Origin: Limibacillus halophilus
Lineage (GTDB): Bacteria; Pseudomonadota; Alphaproteobacteria; Kiloniellales; CECT-8803
Assembly: GCF_014191775.1 (NCBI RefSeq)
Contig: NZ_JACHXA010000012.1
Location: 1 to 53,116 of the forward strand
Length of the DNA stretch: 53,116 bases
Direction of reading: 5' to 3'
A program made the translations under genes and the position numbers. Every line of letters starts with the position of its first letter. The first letter of the stretch is position 1. This document shows, in pieces, positions 5,219 to 53,116 of this stretch. A model generated the notes under the pieces. The model saw only the letters and a program-made list of their open reading frames with translations, did not search any database and was not told the origin of the DNA.

Positions 5219-5479
5219 GTGCCGCAAGCGCTTAGAAAACGCTCCGTCACCATCGCGGGTCACCGCACCAGCTTCTCGCTGGAGGACGCGTTCTGGCAGG
5301 AGTTGAAGGACTGGGCGAGCGAAGAAGACTGTTCCCTGAACGAACTGGTGGCCCAGATCGACGGCGCGCGCATCGACGACAACACAGATGAGGGTCGCGG
5401 TGTAAACCTCTCCAGCGCACTGCGTCTGGCGATCCTCGCCCGGCTTCGCGAACGGCTTGACCGCGCTACTTCTTCTTGA
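5219..5479 (+). CDS. Ribbon-helix-helix domain protein
   Basis: An 86-residue protein of the RHH_4 type. The strand segment K-R-S-V-T-I-A-G-H-R-T-S-F-S-L-E (about 7-22) is followed by two helices (E-x-F-W-x-x-L-K and S-L-N-E-L-V-A-Q-I-D), then a short tail ending S-A-L-R-L-A-I-L. The start is GTG at 5219, chosen because AAGGAG lies 9 bases upstream; a longer frame from 5120 overlaps fumC and reads out of family. Such proteins usually dimerise to bind DNA, but the target is unknown. It ends 14 bases inside the 3' end of the convergent AsmA gene. Confidence 0.85.
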   Translation: MPQALRKRSVTIAGHRTSFSLEDAFWQELKDWASEEDCSLNELVAQIDGARIDDNTDEGRGVNLSSALRLAILARLRERLDRATSS

Positions 5480-8400
5480 GGCTCTTGAGGATGCCCTTGA
5501 CCAAGTCGTTCGTCTCTGGCTGATGCTCCTCTCCAGGAACCGGCGGTCGTGAAGGTGCCGGGGCGGGTGCCGGGGCCGGGGCGACCTGCTCAGTGGTCGT
5601 GGGGGCTGGTTTGGGCGTCGGTGTGGCCAGCGGGGTGGATTCCTGCTGTGGTTGCTGGGTCGGTACAACCGTCTTGCTGGCTGCGCCCGTCACTGGCTCG
5701 ATTTTGCGAACCGTCGGTGCCGCTGTGGGTGCAGTCTGCTGAATTGGGGCCTGTTGGATTATCGGCGCCTGAGCCGGCGCCGGACTCGGAGCGGCCGTTG
5801 GCGCTGACGTCGGGGTGACCTGCGTACCGGGAATGAGCCCGGGCACCAGCTTTTGCAATTGTCCTTCAATCCCTTGCTGTATCTGCTGTTGAGGCGCTTG
5901 TGCGCCGCTCAACGCCTGCCCGCCGACCTTTAGGCTTGGTGAGTCCAATGGCCCCTTCGCTGTAACCGTGAGGAAGGGAACATCGCCGTCTTGCTGCCGG
6001 AACAGCTTGCTCTCCAAATCCAGAAGCCAGCGCGGTAAATCCGCCGTCATCCTCGCTCTGGCCGTCGCGCGATCACTTTCAAGCAGCAGATCGTCGGAAG
6101 TCACCACGCCCTGCTCGGTCACATGGGTTCCCGACAATCGCGCCTCGCGGCCGGCAAAAGCGGAAAACACACTGTTAGTCGCATCCGCCAGTCCCCGAAC
6201 CTGCCCGACCTGCTGACCTAAGATGCCCACGAGCAGATTTGCCGCCTGCTCCTGCGTCTTCGCCTTCAACGTCACGCGCCCATCGATTCGTCCTCTGCCC
6301 GCCAGATTTGAGATCATGGCTCTTTGAGAAACGCCTTTGGTGTCCATAGTTCCCGTCAGGCTTACGGGCCCGGAAATCCGATCGAAATCAGCCAGGGCAC
6401 GCAACGCGGCTTCGCTGTCGATATCCGTGAGGTCATAGTCACCTGAGATCGCCGGTGTGCCGTTGGCATCGACCACCCCGGTAAGGGAGACGCGGCCGCC
6501 AAAACTGCGGCCTGTAAGGCGCTCCAGGGTCAGGCGTCCAGCTTTGAGTGCCGCGCTCACTCGGGCATCACTCAGGCGGTAAGGCGCCAGCACCAGATAG
6601 TCGGCCGTCAAGGTCAGGCGGCCGTCATATGCCTGTAAGGCCGTCAAATCGATAGCCTCATCGGACCAGCGCTCTTGGCCTTCCTTCTTACTGTTGTCTA
6701 CTTTACCGGTCGCGGCCCGGTCGGCATCGCTCCCTGAACCGCTCAGCGCGGATAGAACTGCGAGATCAAGTTCCCCCGCGTAGAGTTCGGCTTCCAAGGT
6801 CGGCCGATCGTCCATCATATAGACGAGCGAGCCCTTTACTTCATTGGCGCCCAGTTTCACCGATAGTTTGTCAGCCCGCCCTTCCCGGCTCGTCCCTCGT
6901 AGCGTCGATGCCAGGTCCAGCGGTAGCGCGATCCCGGCAGAAGAATCGGTCGCCGGGCTAAAGGACTGCACAAGCGCCCTGGCATCGGGATGATGCAATT
7001 CAACGGATTGCTCGAAAGCGATGGGATCGTTGCCAGGCTGCAGCACACCGCGAAGGCTATAGCGACCTTGCCCCAGGGTTCCTTGGAGCATGTTCTCGAC
7101 GCGATCCCCGTTGCCTTTCAAACGTCCGGCAATCGTCAGCGCACCCGGGTTTGAATCGCTGGGCGCAGAAACGCCCAAGGCCGCCAACAACGAAAGCGGC
7201 TTAGGCGCGTTCAGGGTGATCTGCAAATCGACTTCAGGCGAGCCCGAAACCGGTAGGGTAAGCGGTCCCTTCAGCAGTGCCTCAACCTCTCCTAAGCTGA
7301 CCCGGCTGTCGAGATCGAACCGACTGCTATCGCCTTTGGCCGAAGCCTCGAAACCCAACGCCCCCAACGCTCCCAGGGCGGGTCCGCCAGGTTGGAGCCG
7401 CGCCAATAGGCGCTCACCCGCCGGATGTTTTCCAGTCAGCGTCAAATCGAAGGTTGCGGGCTGCTTCAGGGGCGAGACCGCCCCACGCAAACTAAAACGG
7501 CCACCTAGCGATTCCAGCGTACCCTCCAGATCGAAGCGGCCCTCCTTGCTAGCAACACTGCCAACCAAATGGCTGTCCGCCAGGCGGTCGAGCAAGGGAT
7601 GCTGCAAGGCGAAAAGTGACGCCAGTGCCGCCGGTTCCTGTGCCGTAAGTTCCAGGTCCAAGCGCCCGTTGGGATTCGTGGAAAGGTCCGAGAAAGTTCC
7701 GCTGGCTTCCAGCCGCGCATTCGCAATCTTGCCGACAAAAGCTCGGCGCAAGGTTACTTTGCCCGCCGCCAAGGTCCCGTCGAGATGGAGTTGCTCGGCC
7801 GTCTTGCCGCGATAAGTGATTTGCTGGGCGCGCAGGTCGAAATTCGCATCGACAGCCTCAAGCAAAGCAAACGGCGAGGGCCGCTCCTCGCTGCTTGAAC
7901 TCCCTGAGGGTTCGTGAGCGCTGCCGTCGGCAGGAAAATAAGCGTCCAGATCGAGTTTATCGAGCGTCAGACCTGCCCCCAGCCCAAGGCGCGGCCCGGT
8001 CACCACGGCAATACCGCCGGTTACACGACTGACATCGACCTGCAGATCGATATCGGTGGCCGAGAAGCTGTCCGGCGCACCTTGCAGGTGCAATGTCAGG
8101 AGACTGCGGCGCAGACGGTCAGCAGGCACCTCGCCAATAGACACCCCCATCCAGGACAGAACCGAACGTAGATTGTCGGAGGCAAATTCCAGATCAACAG
8201 AGAACTGCGGCTTCCCTTCAACCGCCCGCAAGGTGCCGTTAGCGGAGAAATCCGAGCCTCCGGGTACCTGAGCCTGAAACCGCTCCAAGGTCATCAACCC
8301 GTCGGTCAGAGTACCGCCCAGGCGCAATTGCCGCACGACCTGACCGCGATAGATCAGCACTTCAGATGACAGGTCGAAGGAAAGGTTCATCTCCGATGGG

Positions 8401-45075: not shown

Positions 45076-46671
45076 CTAGTCGAGCGAAGGCCGCGCCTGC
45101 CCTCGGCGCTCCAACGCTTCCGCGCGGTCCGAGGCCAAATCTTGGGCACTCACCCGCCCTGTGGAGGCCACGCCGAACGATGCCGGATCGCGCGGTTCCA
45201 GCAGGCAGACGGCGAAGGTTGATTCCTGACACTTCAAGGTGGAATCGCCGACAGGAAAGGCCCCGTCGCTGAAACCGATGAACGACCGCCCATCGGCAAT
45301 CGCATTTCCGAGGAACGTGGTATTGCGCCCGATCAACTCAAGGCTCGCGTTGTGGCTAACCTGGGCATCGCCTTCCACCATGGCTTCATTCAGCACCACG
45401 GTAGCGGAATGATCCGCCTCGATCGCCATGCGGTCGAAAGGTCCCTCCGGCCAGGGAAAAGCATGGCCCGGTTCGTAGGCAAGATAGAAATCGATGTCGT
45501 CAGGGAGAATCGGCAGGGCATTGTGCCGTCCGCCTTGCGTGACCGACAGAGCCGCATGGTTGTTGTCGTAGATGCGGGCGAGGCTCGTGACGCTATCCCC
45601 GCCGACGTTACGAAGGCCGACGCCGTTCTTACCCTCTCCAAAGCCATTATTGTAGATGTCAATGATGTCGCCACGGTAGCGCCCCCCATGGTGCACTGCG
45701 ACTCCATCGCCACCATTGTCGCCATAGATGCTCAGGAAATCATTGAAGATTGCAGCATCCGACACTCTGAGCCCGGCATCGCCGTTGTTTGCCGAATAGC
45801 AGCCAATACAATTGGCCAAAGTTGATCCGCTGACCCAAATCCCGCTTTCCGAGTTCTCTCTGATTGCCGGTGTAAACCCCACAAGCACCGTTGCGCCCGA
45901 GGCAAAGACACCGAACTCGTACCCCTCAACGAATATTGCATCTAGCAGCGCTGAGGAATCTATGAGGTTAACACCAACGCCTTCGCCCTCTGCCGACGGG
46001 CCGTTAAATGCCAGACCGTGCAGCGTGATGCCGGTCGAATTCCTTATGGTGACGCCCCTGCCTGTCAGAGTCGGCATGAAGCCATCTGGCAGGTAGGGAT
46101 TCACAGCCGTTACGGTCAGGTGTGACTTGTCCCTGATTACAAACGAGGCCGCAGCACCGCTGCAGTCGCTCAAGATGTAGATGATCGTGTGCTGGCCGGG
46201 CGTATCGGCGTCTATCGCATCTTGCGGATCCTCGCCCGCCGCGCAGTCAACTTCGACTTCAACAACCGGCAGGTCCGGCGGCGGCGTGAAAGCGGAGATG
46301 ACCTCCGGCGCTAAGTCGGCCAGCCCAATCGTGCCGTCGGCGATCTTGTCGCCGCCGATATCGCCCCTCAGTTTCCAATGGGGAATATCGCCCCGCAGCT
46401 TGGCCGCCGGGATGTCGCCCCGAAGTTTGGCTGCCGGGATGTCGCCCCGAAGTTTGGCCGCCGGGATGTCGCCGATCAACTTCCAAGGCGGAATAGAATT
46501 GTTCTCAAGATGGCTTCCACCATTTAAGGAGCCCGGAACCACTTCGGAGCCCTCGACGCAAGCTAGGCAATCGAGGTCTGAGGCCGTTTGTGCCCGGGAA
46601 CCAAATGGCAGGAAACCTACAACCACGGCGAGGCATAAAAAAGCCGCCGAGAGTTTCGAGCTCCAGTTCAT
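45076..46671 (-). CDS. Secreted right-handed beta-helix protein with tandem repeats
   Basis: A 531-residue exported protein. Residues 1-28 form a signal peptide ending near S-R-A-Q-T. Residues 60-112 carry tandem 9-residue repeats of the type G-D-I-P-A-A-K-L-R; similar I-P-x-x-K-L modules occur in phage tail and surface fibre proteins, where they form repetitive stalks. From about 130 on, the sequence has regular V/I, N and G spacing (for example I-R-N-S-T-G-I-T-L-H-G-L-A-F-N-G) of a pectate-lyase-like parallel beta-helix. No pectate-lyase catalytic pattern is identified. ATG 46671 has AAGGGG upstream; a longer frame to 46722 lacks a signal-peptide start. Confidence 0.78.
   Translation of the reverse strand: MNWSSKLSAAFLCLAVVVGFLPFGSRAQTASDLDCLACVEGSEVVPGSLNGGSHLENNSIPPWKLIGDIPAAKLRGDIPAAKLRGDIPAAKLRGDIPHWKLRGDIGGDKIADGTIGLADLAPEVISAFTPPPDLPVVEVEVDCAAGEDPQDAIDADTPGQHTIIYILSDCSGAAASFVIRDKSHLTVTAVNPYLPDGFMPTLTGRGVTIRNSTGITLHGLAFNGPSAEGEGVGVNLIDSSALLDAIFVEGYEFGVFASGATVLVGFTPAIRENSESGIWVSGSTLANCIGCYSANNGDAGLRVSDAAIFNDFLSIYGDNGGDGVAVHHGGRYRGDIIDIYNNGFGEGKNGVGLRNVGGDSVTSLARIYDNNHAALSVTQGGRHNALPILPDDIDFYLAYEPGHAFPWPEGPFDRMAIEADHSATVVLNEAMVEGDAQVSHNASLELIGRNTTFLGNAIADGRSFIGFSDGAFPVGDSTLKCQESTFAVCLLEPRDPASFGVASTGRVSAQDLASDRAEALERRGQARPSLD
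46336..46494 (-). repeat. 27-bp tandem repeats inside the beta-helix gene
   Basis: About five to six 27-bp units encode the G-D-I-P-x-x-K-L-R modules. Three central units (about 46391-46471) are almost identical, differing at two to three positions, while the outer ones are diverged. The near identity of the central units implies recent copy-number change by slippage or recombination. Confidence 0.85.
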
Positions 46672-46982
46672 GCCGCACCCCTTTTCCTCCGCGCCACCGA
46701 GATCATTCCGAACGGAAGACACTCGTTAAATTGGCTTTCGTCTTTGTCATCCCGCACCGATCATCGCCTCATGGCTCACTCGGCCTACCATCTTTTACTT
46801 TTTTAGATCGCTGATGGATGGATGAACGTACTAGCGGGCGAGAGGTGGCTTTATGATCATGCAGGGACGAGGACTGTGTCATGCATCAATTTGTATCTAA
46901 TTGTAGGACTGTGACGAGAGCCGCCGGAATACAGCGCTTTAACGATAGCCCCCTGCGCTTGAATTCGCGGTCTCGCGGGCCA
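46672..46982. other. 311-bp intergenic region without a gene
   Basis: No gene or RNA is supported. A GGACTGTG octamer occurs twice (near 46873 and 46905), flanked by GACGAG on opposite sides, and a T-rich stretch lies near 46792-46805. The region should contain the beta-helix promoter and the 3' end of the ligase transcript. Confidence 0.5.
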
Positions 46983-50639: not shown

Positions 50640-50885
50640 ATGGCGGATGTCGCCGGCGTGACGGGTGAGCAGCTAAAATCCTACATCGAGCGCATCGAGC
50701 GCCTTGAAGAAGAGAAGAAAGCGCTGGCTGAAGACGTCAAGGAAGTCTATGCCGAAGCCAAAGGCAACGGTTTCGATACCAAGGTCATGCGCAAGCTGAT
50801 CAGCCTCCGGAAGATGAACGCCAGCGACCGCGCTGAGCAGGAAGAACTCCTCGATCTCTACAAAACCGCCATCGGCATGGCGTAA
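50640..50885 (+). CDS. gapR: GapR-family DNA-binding protein (DUF2312/UPF0335)
   Basis: An 81-residue all-helical protein of the UPF0335/DUF2312 family, which includes Caulobacter GapR. It has a long charged coiled-coil helix (I-E-R-I-E-R-L-E-E-E-K-K-A-L-A, 16-30), then G-N-G-F-D-T-K-V-M-R-K-L-I and a C-terminal helix ending L-Y-K-T-A-I-G. GapR clamps overtwisted DNA ahead of forks and polymerases. GAAGGAG precedes the ATG. It is the last recognisable gene before the repeat-rich region. Confidence 0.93.
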   Translation: MADVAGVTGEQLKSYIERIERLEEEKKALAEDVKEVYAEAKGNGFDTKVMRKLISLRKMNASDRAEQEELLDLYKTAIGMA

Positions 50886-50897
50886 CGCCGGACGACC

Positions 50898-51033
50898 TCC
50901 GCGCCTCTTGTCGGTTCCCTGTCGGGGCTTCGCCCCTCCGCGCCTCTTGTCGGTTCCCTGTCGGGGCTCACGCCCCTCCGCGCCTCTTGTTGGTTCCCTG
51001 TCGGGGCTCACGCCCCTCCGCGCCTTTTGTTGG
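50898..51033. repeat. 40-bp tandem repeat array downstream of gapR
   Basis: Three complete units (50898-50936, 50937-50976, 50977-51016) and a partial fourth (51017 to about 51033) share a 39-40-bp sequence starting TCCGCGCCTCTTGT. Each contains a G-G-G-G-C/G-C-C-C-C stem with a short TCAC or TTC loop, so the array can form three stacked hairpins. Units differ at one to three positions. It might serve as gapR terminator, but no T-run follows. Confidence 0.85.
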
Positions 51034-51036
51034 CCG

Positions 51037-51150
51037 CCCTCACCCTTCGAGAGGAGGCTCCGCCTCTCCTCAGGGTGAGGGTTATGGCGACGGGTTGAAG
51101 ACCCCTCATCCTGAGGAGGTAACGCAGTCACCGTCTCGAAGGATGAGGGC
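51037..51150. repeat. Bipartite palindromic REP-like element, copy A
   Basis: A roughly 114-bp element made of two long inverted repeats: a first one with CTCACCCT/AGGGTGAG outer arms and GAGGAGGC/GCCTCTCC inner parts, and a second with CCTCATCCT/AGGATGAGG arms, separated by a spacer around 51080-51102. The second half resembles dispersed palindromes common in alphaproteobacterial genomes. A near-identical copy lies inside the gene at 52790-52903. Confidence 0.85.
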
Positions 51151-51166
51151 GAGGCGTTTCACCTCT

Positions 51167-51315
51167 ATACAACCTCTTGCTGTTTACGCGTCCGCGCACT
51201 ATCTTACTAGTGGTTGCCAGGACGTCAGGAAAATCGCTAGGTCCTGGGGGTTATCCTGCCTTAGCAGCAGTGAAACCGTATGTGGGAGGTAGGCGACCCA
51301 CCCTGGCAACCACCT
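51167..51315. repeat. Structured element copy 1 (149-bp repeat with 104-nt cloverleaf core)
   Basis: The core runs 51210-51313. Arms GTGGTTGCCAGG (51210-51221) and CCTGGCAACCAC (51302-51313) form a perfect 12-bp stem. Inside are three hairpins: CAGG/CCTG, GGTT/AACC enclosing CTGC/GCAG, and GTGGG/CCCAC. Including about 43 bp of left flank it repeats at 51480-51628 with about 14 differences over 149 bp by hand count. The coding strand of any RNA is not known. No open frame with protein character is present. Confidence 0.8.
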
Positions 51316-51359
51316 GTTCGATCTCTTGATTTAGATTACATACACCCTTAAATTGATAT

Positions 51360-51460
51360 TGTGATCGTCGTGACGTCAGGGAATACGCTTGATCCTGGGC
51401 GCCGTTGGCTTTGGCCCGTGGCGGTATGTGGGAGATGGGCGACCCACCGCGATGATCACA
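51360..51460. repeat. Structured element copy 2 (diverged, compensatory changes)
   Basis: A 101-nt middle copy. Its closing stem TGTGATCGTCG/CGATGATCACA (51360-51370 with 51450-51460) has a different sequence from copies 1 and 3 but still pairs over 11 bp with one G-U. The third helix is CGCC/GGCG with inner GGC/GCC in place of GGTT/AACC with CTGC/GCAG. The GACGTCAGG-GAATACGCTT block and the GTATGTGGG...CCCACC hairpin are unchanged. Helices kept while sequence changes suggest that folding is under selection. Confidence 0.75.
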
Positions 51461-51479
51461 CCCATAGCCCTCTGAAGAC

Positions 51480-51628
51480 ATACAACCTCTTGCTGTTTAA
51501 GCGCCATCGCACTATCTTACCAGTGGTTGCCAGGACGTCAGGGAATACGCTTTGTCCTGGGGGTTGTCCTGCCTTAGCAGCAGCGAAACCGTATGTGGGA
51601 GATGGGCGACCCACCCTGGCAACCACCT
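51480..51628. repeat. Structured element copy 3
   Basis: Core 51523-51626, same architecture as copy 1 at a 313-bp offset, with a perfect GTGGTTGCCAGG/CCTGGCAACCAC closing stem. It ends 58 bases past the stop codon of the right-edge nuclease-domain gene, which is transcribed toward it. Possible pairing between ATACG in the second loop and CGTAT before the last hairpin could add a long-range contact; it is present in this copy, partly in copy 2 and absent in copy 1. Confidence 0.8.
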
Positions 51629-51685
51629 CTTTTCATAGGGCCCGTTTCTAACAAGCCGCCGGTCCAGGAAACTGGATTTATCCGG

Positions 51686-53116
51686 TCAATCCAAGCCACC
51701 TTGAATGATGTCAAAGAGGCCCTCATCCGTAAGGCTGTCCGATGGTACCCTGCCCGCACTGATGACCGTGGGCTGTACGGTTCTTCCGTTCCTCGTCTTA
51801 GTTGAGAATTCGATATCCACGACGAATTTCGCGGACTTGCTGTCTTCGCCCGGTATCTCAACGACATAAAGCAAGCGATTGTTGCCGTTCCGCGCTTTAT
51901 CTGCCTTGTCGAACAGCACGGCCTTTGGGTTGGCCAGGGCGTCGGGCATCTTCCGGATCATCTCTTGGGGCAGGGCCCTTCCACCGGCAGTCTTGGAGTC
52001 ACGAAGCATGCGTAAGATTCGCTGATCTGAAGCAACGATGGCGTCGGTCGTAATCTCGATGCCCTTTTCTTCCAGGAAGCCCTTGACTTCCGGGCTCAGC
52101 CGGCCCGCCGGGACGACGCGGGCCTTGCTGCTGGCGCGGCCGGTCTCGATCATCTCCCCCGCCCAGTCGGAAAATTCCTTTGCATGACGCTCGGGGTTTC
52201 GCGTCGCCTGTCGGGCGGCAATGCCAAGGAAGGAAGAGGCCAGGCCCTTGACGCCCAACCCGGCGATCTTTGCGGCCTTGCCTGCGACCGGCACGGTCCC
52301 CAGGCCATCCAACAGTGTCATGGCGCCGTTGAAGGCGGCTCCCAGCATGTCGCCTTCTTCCAGCGACTTGGCGGTCGCCTCGAAGGACTCCACCGCATCC
52401 TCGGCGCTGCGTAGTTCGCCGATGCCAGGCAGCAGATCGAGGATCAGACCGCCCAGGGCGTCAGCCCCCTCCAGACGGCGGAATTCTGGCTCCGGCGGGG
52501 CGACGCCTTGCGCCTCCAGGTCCTGCAGCAAGGCATCGAGGCCTTCGTCGTGCTGCTTTTCCAGGGCCACCAGGGCCTGGGTGTCGGGGATCGGCTGATT
52601 GAGAAGGCGCTGGCGTTCCTCCTGAAAGGACTGACTGCTCGCCTCGGCCTTCACGGCCTCCAGATCCGCCTGGGCCGGGGCCTCGTTGCGCACCGCATCG
52701 AAGTCTGCCGGCGGATCGGCTTTTACTGGATCATCCTGCGGTTTGGCTGCTGCTTGGCTGGGGCTACCGGCGCCGCTGCTGCCAGCGTCGCCCCCCTTCG
52801 AGACGAGGCTTCGCCTCTCCTCAGGGTGAGGGTTATGGCGACGGGTTGAAGACCCCTCATCCGGAGGAGGTGACGCAGTCACCGTCTCGAAGGATGGCGA
52901 GGGCACGCTCTCCTCGCGGATGGCCTTCTCGCCCGCCAGGGCGGCCATCATGGCCTTGGCCTCCTCGGCGCGGGTGGCGATCAGCTTGGCGGTCAAGGGG
53001 TCATCGGCGTTGGCGCTCTGTTCGGCCAGCGTGGTCTCGGCCGCCGAGATCAGGCCTTCGGCCTCCAGCAGGTCATCCTCGTCGGTATCGGGCAGCCGGG
53101 CATTCAGGAACGCCAG
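51686..53116 (-). CDS. Large toxin-like or phage-type protein with C-terminal BECR-like nuclease domain (5' end outside window)
   Basis: The frame is open to the window edge, giving the last 476 residues; a TTG at 52996 is only an internal codon. An N-terminal helical, acidic part is followed by a low-complexity linker containing the translated REP-like element. Next comes D-L-L-P-G-I-G-E-L-R-S-A-E-D-A with small hydrophobic stretches, resembling pretoxin segments of polymorphic toxins. The last 110 residues (M-P-D-A-L-A-N-P-K-A-V-L-F-D, L-L-Y-V-V-E-I-P-G, K-F-V-V-D-I-E-F) resemble phage MuF/portal-associated BECR nuclease domains. No immunity gene follows. Assignment to nuclease is by pattern only. 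Confidence 0.65.
   Translation of the reverse strand: MAFLNARLPDTDEDDLLEAEGLISAAETTLAEQSANADDPLTAKLIATRAEEAKAMMAALAGEKAIREESVPSPSFETVTASPPPDEGSSTRRHNPHPEERRSLVSKGGDAGSSGAGSPSQAAAKPQDDPVKADPPADFDAVRNEAPAQADLEAVKAEASSQSFQEERQRLLNQPIPDTQALVALEKQHDEGLDALLQDLEAQGVAPPEPEFRRLEGADALGGLILDLLPGIGELRSAEDAVESFEATAKSLEEGDMLGAAFNGAMTLLDGLGTVPVAGKAAKIAGLGVKGLASSFLGIAARQATRNPERHAKEFSDWAGEMIETGRASSKARVVPAGRLSPEVKGFLEEKGIEITTDAIVASDQRILRMLRDSKTAGGRALPQEMIRKMPDALANPKAVLFDKADKARNGNNRLLYVVEIPGEDSKSAKFVVDIEFSTKTRNGRTVQPTVISAGRVPSDSLTDEGLFDIIQGGLD
52790..52903 (-). repeat. REP-like element copy B inside a coding sequence
   Basis: Nearly identical to 51037-51150, including CTCAGGGTGAGGGTTATGGC and the conserved spacer. 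Here it is translated without a stop as part of the right-edge gene, adding about 38 residues with P-P-D-E-G-S-S-T-R-R-H-N-P-H-P-E-E-R-R-S. It falls in a low-complexity linker between the helical part and the pretoxin-like segment. The intergenic copy would encode nearly the same peptide in the same orientation. Confidence 0.85.

Follow-up and report, generated by a model that had tools for sequence, protein, structure and literature searches.

Near the end of a 53,116-nucleotide (nt) stretch of Limibacillus halophilus DNA (contig NZ_JACHXA010000012.1; the whole stretch is called the window below), three copies of a transfer RNA (tRNA)-like RNA lie beside a gene whose product ends in a predicted ribonuclease (RNase) domain. 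A GapR-like gene (50640–50885, + strand) and a convergent gene (51686–53116, − strand), which encodes at least 476 amino acids (aa) and runs off the contig end, are separated by an 800-nt gap, and this gap is the site of all three copies. The C-terminal part of the convergent gene product, encoded at about 51686–52288, is the PBECR/MuF_C-like predicted RNase domain. The copies are read on the + strand: copy 1 at 51210–51313, copy 2 at 51361–51459 and copy 3 at 51523–51626. In copy 1, the closing stem is formed by 51210–51221 and 51302–51313 and encloses D-like, anticodon-like and T-like hairpins. Copy 3 is a near-copy of copy 1, both belonging to a common 152-nt unit (90% identity, 43 nt of upstream flank included), and copy 2 is divergent with compensatory changes. 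A first-pass annotation of the window had reported three structured tandem elements of 101–104 nt; the elements are real, and their lengths are 104, 99 and 104 nt. The partner gene and the tRNA-like fold were absent from it.

The closing stem forms 12 of 12 pairs in each of the three copies, with three hairpins inside. Six stem pairs of copy 2 differ from those of copies 1 and 3, five by two-sided changes (one giving U.G) and one by a one-sided change (giving G.U), and as many as five two-sided changes were reached in 2 of 500 shuffles. The earlier statement that the stem of copy 2 differs in sequence and still pairs is thereby borne out, with 12 pairs, two of them G.U, in place of the 11 originally given. 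The arm described as replaced (CGCC/GGCG for GGTT/AACC) does pair, and when read from the sequence it is the second internal hairpin and not the third; the kept loop blocks are present as described. Because the two G.U pairs in the closing stem of copy 2 on the + strand would be A.C mismatches on the − strand, they point to the + strand as the strand of the RNA. Folding z-scores of copies 1, 2 and 3 are −3.8, −1.7 and −2.8 on the + strand and −4.4, −0.4 and −2.7 on the − strand, so folding energy alone cannot name the strand. Searched with a covariance model trained on the three window copies alone (R1), the L. halophilus genome holds these three copies only, a fourth place (18.8 bits, E 3.55) being judged a chance match. 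The whole window, searched against Rfam at the gathering cut-off, gives only an alphaproteobacterial transfer-messenger RNA (tmRNA; 1856–2233, 265 bits); the three copies match no family, and six weak matches in a permissive Rfam search of the copy region were judged to be due to chance.

Promoter-like sites can be read from the sequence before each copy on the + strand. Those of copy 1 (51177–51205) and copy 3 (51490–51518) consist of TTGCTG, a 17-nt spacer and TATCTT; that of copy 2 (51326–51360) is weak and consists of TTGATT, a 17-nt spacer and TAAATT, or GATATT at 51355–51360. A strict promoter and terminator scan of 50880–51700 found nothing. Across the RNA and its relatives, a hexamer resembling a −10 box (4 or more of 6 positions) lies 6–24 nt before the RNA in 32 of 42 cases, compared with 217 of 2546 control windows (8.5%). 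The RNA has its own promoter-like site and would probably be transcribed from it. The accessible part of a strand-specific transcriptome study of the B3-family phage Fc02 discusses no such RNA (PMC9936078).

Searches by plain sequence similarity gave no relatives: a 21-base exact motif had 0 matches in a collection of genome contigs and 0 in viral contigs, and both blastn against plasmids and phages and DNA comparison with 58 relatives gave short chance matches only. The first-pass annotation had proposed that a covariance model trained on the copies be run against alphaproteobacterial genomes, and this did yield a relative. Among 385 genomes of the class, that of L. halophilus counted in, R1 had one match beyond the three copies, a full-length one in G323 (39.6 bits, E 2e-4), which is located in a Mu-like prophage between the MuF (gp30-like) gene and the next gene. 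Two weak candidates that R1 gave in 61 genomes of the order (L037 and L038) were without arm 3 and were judged to be chance matches. The G323 MuF protein and the window's convergent gene product can be aligned at their C-termini with 33% identity, and each C-terminus also matches that of two other MuF proteins, one from phage B3 and one from a Pasteurella phage. The RNA is present at the equivalent place in Pseudomonas phage B3 (41.9 bits), where a 99-nt hypothetical open reading frame (ORF) is annotated; in PM105, a B3-like phage, the domain is divergent and there is no gap. At E ≤ 1, R1 matches 7 of 27 loci gathered with the B3 MuF protein as query and 7 of 80 gathered with that of G323, all antisense at the MuF stop, and the next match (L167, E 1.3) is inside a gene. 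Phage B3 and further Mu-like (pro)phages from several groups of bacteria have relatives of the RNA at the MuF stop codon, in antisense orientation. No description of this RNA was found in a literature search of open-licence PMC papers.

The partner domains fall into two related kinds, type 1 (that of the window) and type 2. Compared with Pfam, the window protein stays below the cut-off for MuF_C (18.0 vs 27.6 bits) and PBECR3 (12.3 vs 30 bits). The whole protein has no match among PDB sequences, a viral scan with it gave nothing, and PADLOC reported nothing for four domains. In the counted phage relatives the Phage_Mu_F domain is in the same protein. It is not seen in the visible 476 aa of the window gene, cut by the contig end, and PF04233 has no match in the L. 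halophilus genome; the window module is apparently borne by a non-MuF carrier. AlphaFold models of the domains have a mean predicted local distance difference test (pLDDT) score of 87.1 for type 1 and 92.8 for type 2. When compared by VIA-align 2, the type-1 model has as top matches a Salmonella toxin–antitoxin chain, BrnT, a Mesorhizobium toxin and CdiA-CT of Kp342 (Z 4.8–3.6), and the first ten matches of the type-2 model include BrnT, the Salmonella chain, RelE entries and CdiA-CT (Z 5.3–3.8). We take these toxins to share the BECR/RelE fold. Among viral models, the type-2 domain resembles minor capsid, nuclease and MuF_C proteins (nine at E ≤ 0.001). The modelling supports but does not establish the view that both domain types have the fold of RelE/colicin-type (BECR) RNases, whose core is a helix with 4–5 strands after it and a histidine or arginine in the first helix. 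In the part of Iyer et al. (2017, PMC5512222) available to us, PBECR is a predicted RNase with a histidine in its first helix, or an arginine in one family, and is found fused to MuF or solo; the copy of phage Mu is called inactive and RNA binding is suggested for it, MuF is described as a head component, and, as to the substrate, the authors raise a non-tRNA possibility and suggest messenger RNA or CRISPR RNA. Repeats of other kinds are also present around the window gene. A 103-nt palindromic repeat (51043–51145 and 52794–52896, 96% identical) occurs once in the gap and once inside the toxin-like gene, whose frame is unbroken, and three to four direct repeats of 39–40 nt (50892–51033) follow directly after the GapR-like gene. 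Elsewhere in the window, 45076–46722 encodes a protein with tandem GDIPAAKLR-like repeats and no Pfam match.

The first-pass annotation had named lack of covariation in a larger alignment as a possible refutation of the structured element; the helices do covary. Alignment A6 (16 rows) has two-sided changes at 11 of 12 closing-stem pairs, in rows that were fitted to R1 and hence lean towards its structure. Alignment A7 (14 rows) was made by plain MAFFT, not fitted to a model, and is the cleaner covariation test: 95.5% of its cells are paired, compared with 85.0% in shuffles and 35–53% in slid structures, and two-sided changes are found at 7 of 8 pairs in the acceptor, at 3 of 6 in the T-arm and at 3 of 5 between the D-loop and the T-loop. 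This D-loop/T-loop kiss, which covaries in type 2, is paired in 70 of 70 cells of A7, and in alignment A8 (23 sequences, several misplaced by MAFFT) 5 of 115 cells are unpaired. Type-1 kisses read CGC/GCG, CGCC/GGCG, CGCA/TGCG, CGGC/GCCG and CGGA/TCCG, in loops delimited by hand and with no control. One strand is favoured by the 21 G.U versus 4 A.C cells of A6; in A8 the count is 14 versus 25, counter to the strand argument, with one D-arm position being C.A in most rows, and the argument relies on A6 rather than on the misaligned A8. The fold is of tRNA topology: the four arms come in tRNA order, the T-like arm stacks on the acceptor with no spacer, and the contact between the D- and T-loops covaries. 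The acceptor-like stem has 7–12 base pairs (bp), and the anticodon-like arm has 4–5 bp and a 7-nt loop in some members and a tetraloop in others. ARAGORN, run on 43 loci, calls tRNA-Gly exactly at the place of the RNA in two of them (L185 and L200, the gene of L200 being frameshifted), and among nine related loci searched the cut-off of the Rfam tRNA family (RF00005) is passed by one, L185 (30.8 vs 29 bits). Over the curated RF00005 threshold there is no match in the window, and the family as a whole fails it. A usable anticodon loop together with a CCA end is not present: as read by eye, arm 2 bears a tetraloop in L185, L200 and others, and the window copies are without CCA.

The distribution of the RNA was followed over 258 loci (L071–L328) obtained from MuF protein searches plus four phages. 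Of these, 45 repeated contigs already included and were left out, 200 were scanned with two further models (R2 and R3), and the remaining loci L316–L328, 13 in number, gave no match when scanned with the same models. The 200 loci represent 171 distinct MuF C-termini, namely 43 of type 1, 26 of type 2 and 102 others, and a row was counted as positive when the RNA was near the MuF stop, antisense and at E ≤ 0.05. The RNA is present at 16 of 43 type-1 and 14 of 26 type-2 C-termini (together 30 of 69) and was found by R2 and R3 at none of the 102 C-termini of other types, counts in which many positives had trained the models and the negatives had not. R2 matches type-1 rows and R3 type-2 rows, L245 being matched by both; the 14 type-2 training rows were picked by a D-arm motif in a scan of all type-2 rows. 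In two pairs of MuF proteins the N-termini are close and the C-termini belong to different domain types: G323 and L109 (67% identical N-termini, 26% identical C-termini), and L102 and L264 (71% and 19%). The RNA type tracks the type of the C-terminal domain in both swapped pairs.

The rows were also compared by the state of the domain histidine. As assigned by eye from translated rows, the histidine is intact in 25 type-1 rows, 16 of them with the RNA, and in 21 type-2 rows, 14 with the RNA (30 of 46); where it is lost and the reading frame is intact, the RNA was found in 0 of 17 type-1 and 0 of 5 type-2 rows (0 of 22). The frameshifted type-1 row L090 was left out of this count. The Fisher p values are 3e-5 for type 1 (15, 9, 0, 17; L272 left out) and 0.012 for type 2. 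In the PM105-like and L091-like groups without the histidine there is no room for the RNA, since MuF overlaps the next gene. In L120, where the histidine has become tyrosine, an RNA copy (6350–6441, 77 bits) lies about 2.1 kb from the MuF gene; by eye, its closing stem and kiss are broken. Inspection by eye reveals an RNA of tRNA-like or cloverleaf form, in the right place, in all nine intact type-1 rows without a model match; their lowest-energy fold has a clear four-way junction in L283, L164, L072, L073 and L185 and not in L288, L162/L285 and L287. In the seven unmatched intact type-2 rows no RNA is visible by eye. These type-2-like loci (L271, L268, L277, L132, L144, L184 and L262), some of which abut the next gene, keep the histidine and may have another immunity factor. 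In Candidatus Mailhella (L263), there may be two tandem RNA copies (5379–5479 and 5266–5364), the second being weak (20.4 bits, E 0.26).

The linkage was also followed from the side of the domain and from that of the RNA. As a held-out case, the window domain was searched against 72,556 plasmids and gave a single match, on Rhizobium lusitanum p_1; R2 finds the RNA at this locus (79.5 bits, E 4.5e-15), overlapping the gene end, and the domain sits, by eye from the sequence, on a MuF protein. Scanning for the RNA with R2 over 398 genomes of the phylum and with R3 over 385 genomes of the class gave 4 and 12 matches, respectively, beyond the own genome. In 13 of these 16, an ORF with a type-1 or type-2 domain (weakest domain E 1.8e-5) ends at most 41 nt from the RNA 3′ end in convergent orientation, or in 11 of 14 when L333, an apparent training locus, and L342, a duplicate of L334, are left out. 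No recognisable domain ORF is found at the RNA 3′ end in L331, L335/L352 and L336/L353, which may be orphan RNAs or have diverged partners. Five loci (L345, L346, L347, L348 and L350) have an ORF of 146–254 aa, stop to stop, with no Phage_Mu_F match; one adjoins rho and others are near phage lysozyme or sheath genes, and these ORFs may be solo toxins or remnants. The one at rho (L345, 5903–6463) combines the RNA with a 156-aa domain-only ORF and is possibly a chromosomal stand-alone toxin–antitoxin pair.

Taken together, we consider it probable that the RNA is a tRNA-mimic immunity factor (antitoxin) of a phage-borne RNase-type domain. The presence of the RNA with intact domains and not with others or with histidine-lost ones, its own promoter-like site and its co-exchange with the domain suggest the logic of a toxin and its immunity, and the tRNA-like fold of the RNA next to a RelE/colicin-like fold of the protein suggests substrate mimicry. 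According to this model, the domain would be a toxic RNase acting on tRNA or tRNA-like RNA; the RNA, which would not depend on the late genes for its production in the lysogen, would bind and inhibit the RNase by occupying it as a tRNA mimic, so that the producing cell and its sister cells would survive. In the window, the module is apparently on a non-MuF carrier, and the RNA is triplicated. The RNA lies where immunity protein genes usually sit, and small ORFs downstream of MuF toxins are regarded as likely immunity genes in the accessible part of Jamet et al. (2017, PMC5576092). We lean, a little more cautiously, towards the wider proposal of a widespread kind of RNA-based immunity, in which dedicated tRNA mimics replace the immunity proteins of phage-borne and chromosomal BECR RNases, and a toxin domain and its mimic are swapped as one cassette.

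Several observations weigh against this reading or lessen its support. The structure matches are weak (Z ≤ 5.3) and below the safe level of the tool, Foldseek of the type-1 domain found no PDB match at E 0.001, and the window domain has an arginine where most have a histidine. The kiss in the window copies amounts to 3–4 bp of complementarity only. The training of R2 and R3 on many positives, including all 14 of type 2, favours the finding of positives, and the histidine states depend on reading by eye. The type-1 tree implies about five histidine changes, with two independent pairs on supported branches; because the rows are related, the joint loss of histidine and RNA is not significant when relatedness is allowed for, and is a pattern and not a proof. 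Model matches are lacking in 16 of the 46 histidine-bearing rows (nine type 1, seven type 2), the RNA matches L331, L335 and L336 have no domain ORF alongside, and a weak R2 match (L306, 22.5 bits) is distant from its MuF gene. Antisense action is a further possible role of an RNA that converges on the late operon.

This last possibility, in which the RNA, lying across from the 3′ end of MuF, would regulate the late operon in cis or as antisense (as a terminator or attenuator), agrees with the phage members, where the RNA is convergent and near the MuF stop codon. The RNA depends on the domain type and not on the operon, being found by the models at none of the 102 C-termini of other types, and antisense action needs neither a cross-arm kiss nor a tRNA fold; the own genome is without a Phage_Mu_F match, and the RNA of L345 accompanies an ORF beside rho. 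We regard such a regulator as improbable. A ligand or cargo, held in the phage head and delivered by the domain, or serving it as cofactor or guide, would explain why only two kinds of MuF C-terminus, related to each other, have the RNA, and it agrees with the location of MuF in the head and with the RNA binding suggested for the inactive Mu domain in the accessible part of PMC5512222. A carrier role needs no catalysis, however, and no RNA was found at frame-intact domains that have lost the histidine; short ORFs with no Phage_Mu_F match have the RNA as well, and this explanation appears unlikely.

The RNA might on the other hand serve as substrate of the nuclease or as a decoy tRNA during infection, for example as a cleavage-resistant replacement tRNA. 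The two tRNA-Gly calls speak for such a role, but in L185 and L200 the called anticodon is, by eye, in a tetraloop-closed stem, and an acceptor of up to 12 bp together with window copies without CCA makes a working tRNA unlikely, so that we give this explanation little credence. A mobile DNA hairpin or miniature inverted-repeat transposable element is what the tandem near-copies with shared flanks might otherwise indicate, and the first-pass annotation had left the choice between a structured RNA and a DNA hairpin undecided. The RNA half of that alternative has stood, with covarying helices, the excess of G.U pairs in A6, −10-like boxes and tRNA calls in some relatives. The DNA half has not: G.U pairs are tolerated on one strand, the own genome has a single locus and no more copies where dispersed ones would be expected, and the phage relatives are at one place beside one kind of domain in a fixed orientation to the gene, which makes a mobile element highly implausible.

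If the RNA is indeed an immunity factor, it would be a natural tRNA mimic serving in this function and present in a classical phage (B3). The substrate of virion-borne PBECR domains, left open in the accessible part of PMC5512222, would become directly testable, the mimic pointing to tRNA or tRNA-like RNA. RNA would join the kinds of immunity known for polymorphic toxins, and the covariance model would serve to find such toxins.

The features of the module can be compared with those of known systems. In type III toxin–antitoxin systems (ToxIN, CptIN, TenpIN), a structured small RNA, which can occur in tandem copies, neutralises an RNase by direct binding; the toxin gene is immediately preceded by RNA repeats within one operon, the RNA both inhibits the toxin and is cut by it, and ToxN is MazF-like. 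The present module is alike in its tandem copies and in that a structured RNA would neutralise an RNase. It differs in that the RNA is about 90–110 nt long, folds with tRNA topology, follows a promoter-like site of its own and lies not directly upstream in the toxin operon but downstream and convergent; the toxin is predicted to have a BECR fold and in most cases forms the last domain of a phage head protein. With tRNA (RF00005) the RNA shares the cloverleaf arm order, the T-arm on the acceptor and the contact between D- and T-loops, and it differs from it by a longer acceptor in the type-1 group, a tetraloop on arm 2 in several members and the missing CCA of the window copies. The PBECR/MuF_C domains of polyvalent phage proteins, for which the accessible part of PMC5512222 mentions no partner RNA, are likewise predicted BECR RNases with a first-helix histidine or arginine and are either fused to MuF or solo. 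For the MuF polymorphic toxins, the immunity factors proposed in the available part of PMC5576092 are small proteins, no RNA factor being mentioned there; these toxins and the module described here have in common a MuF head protein, an exchangeable C-terminal toxin and a protective factor expected downstream.
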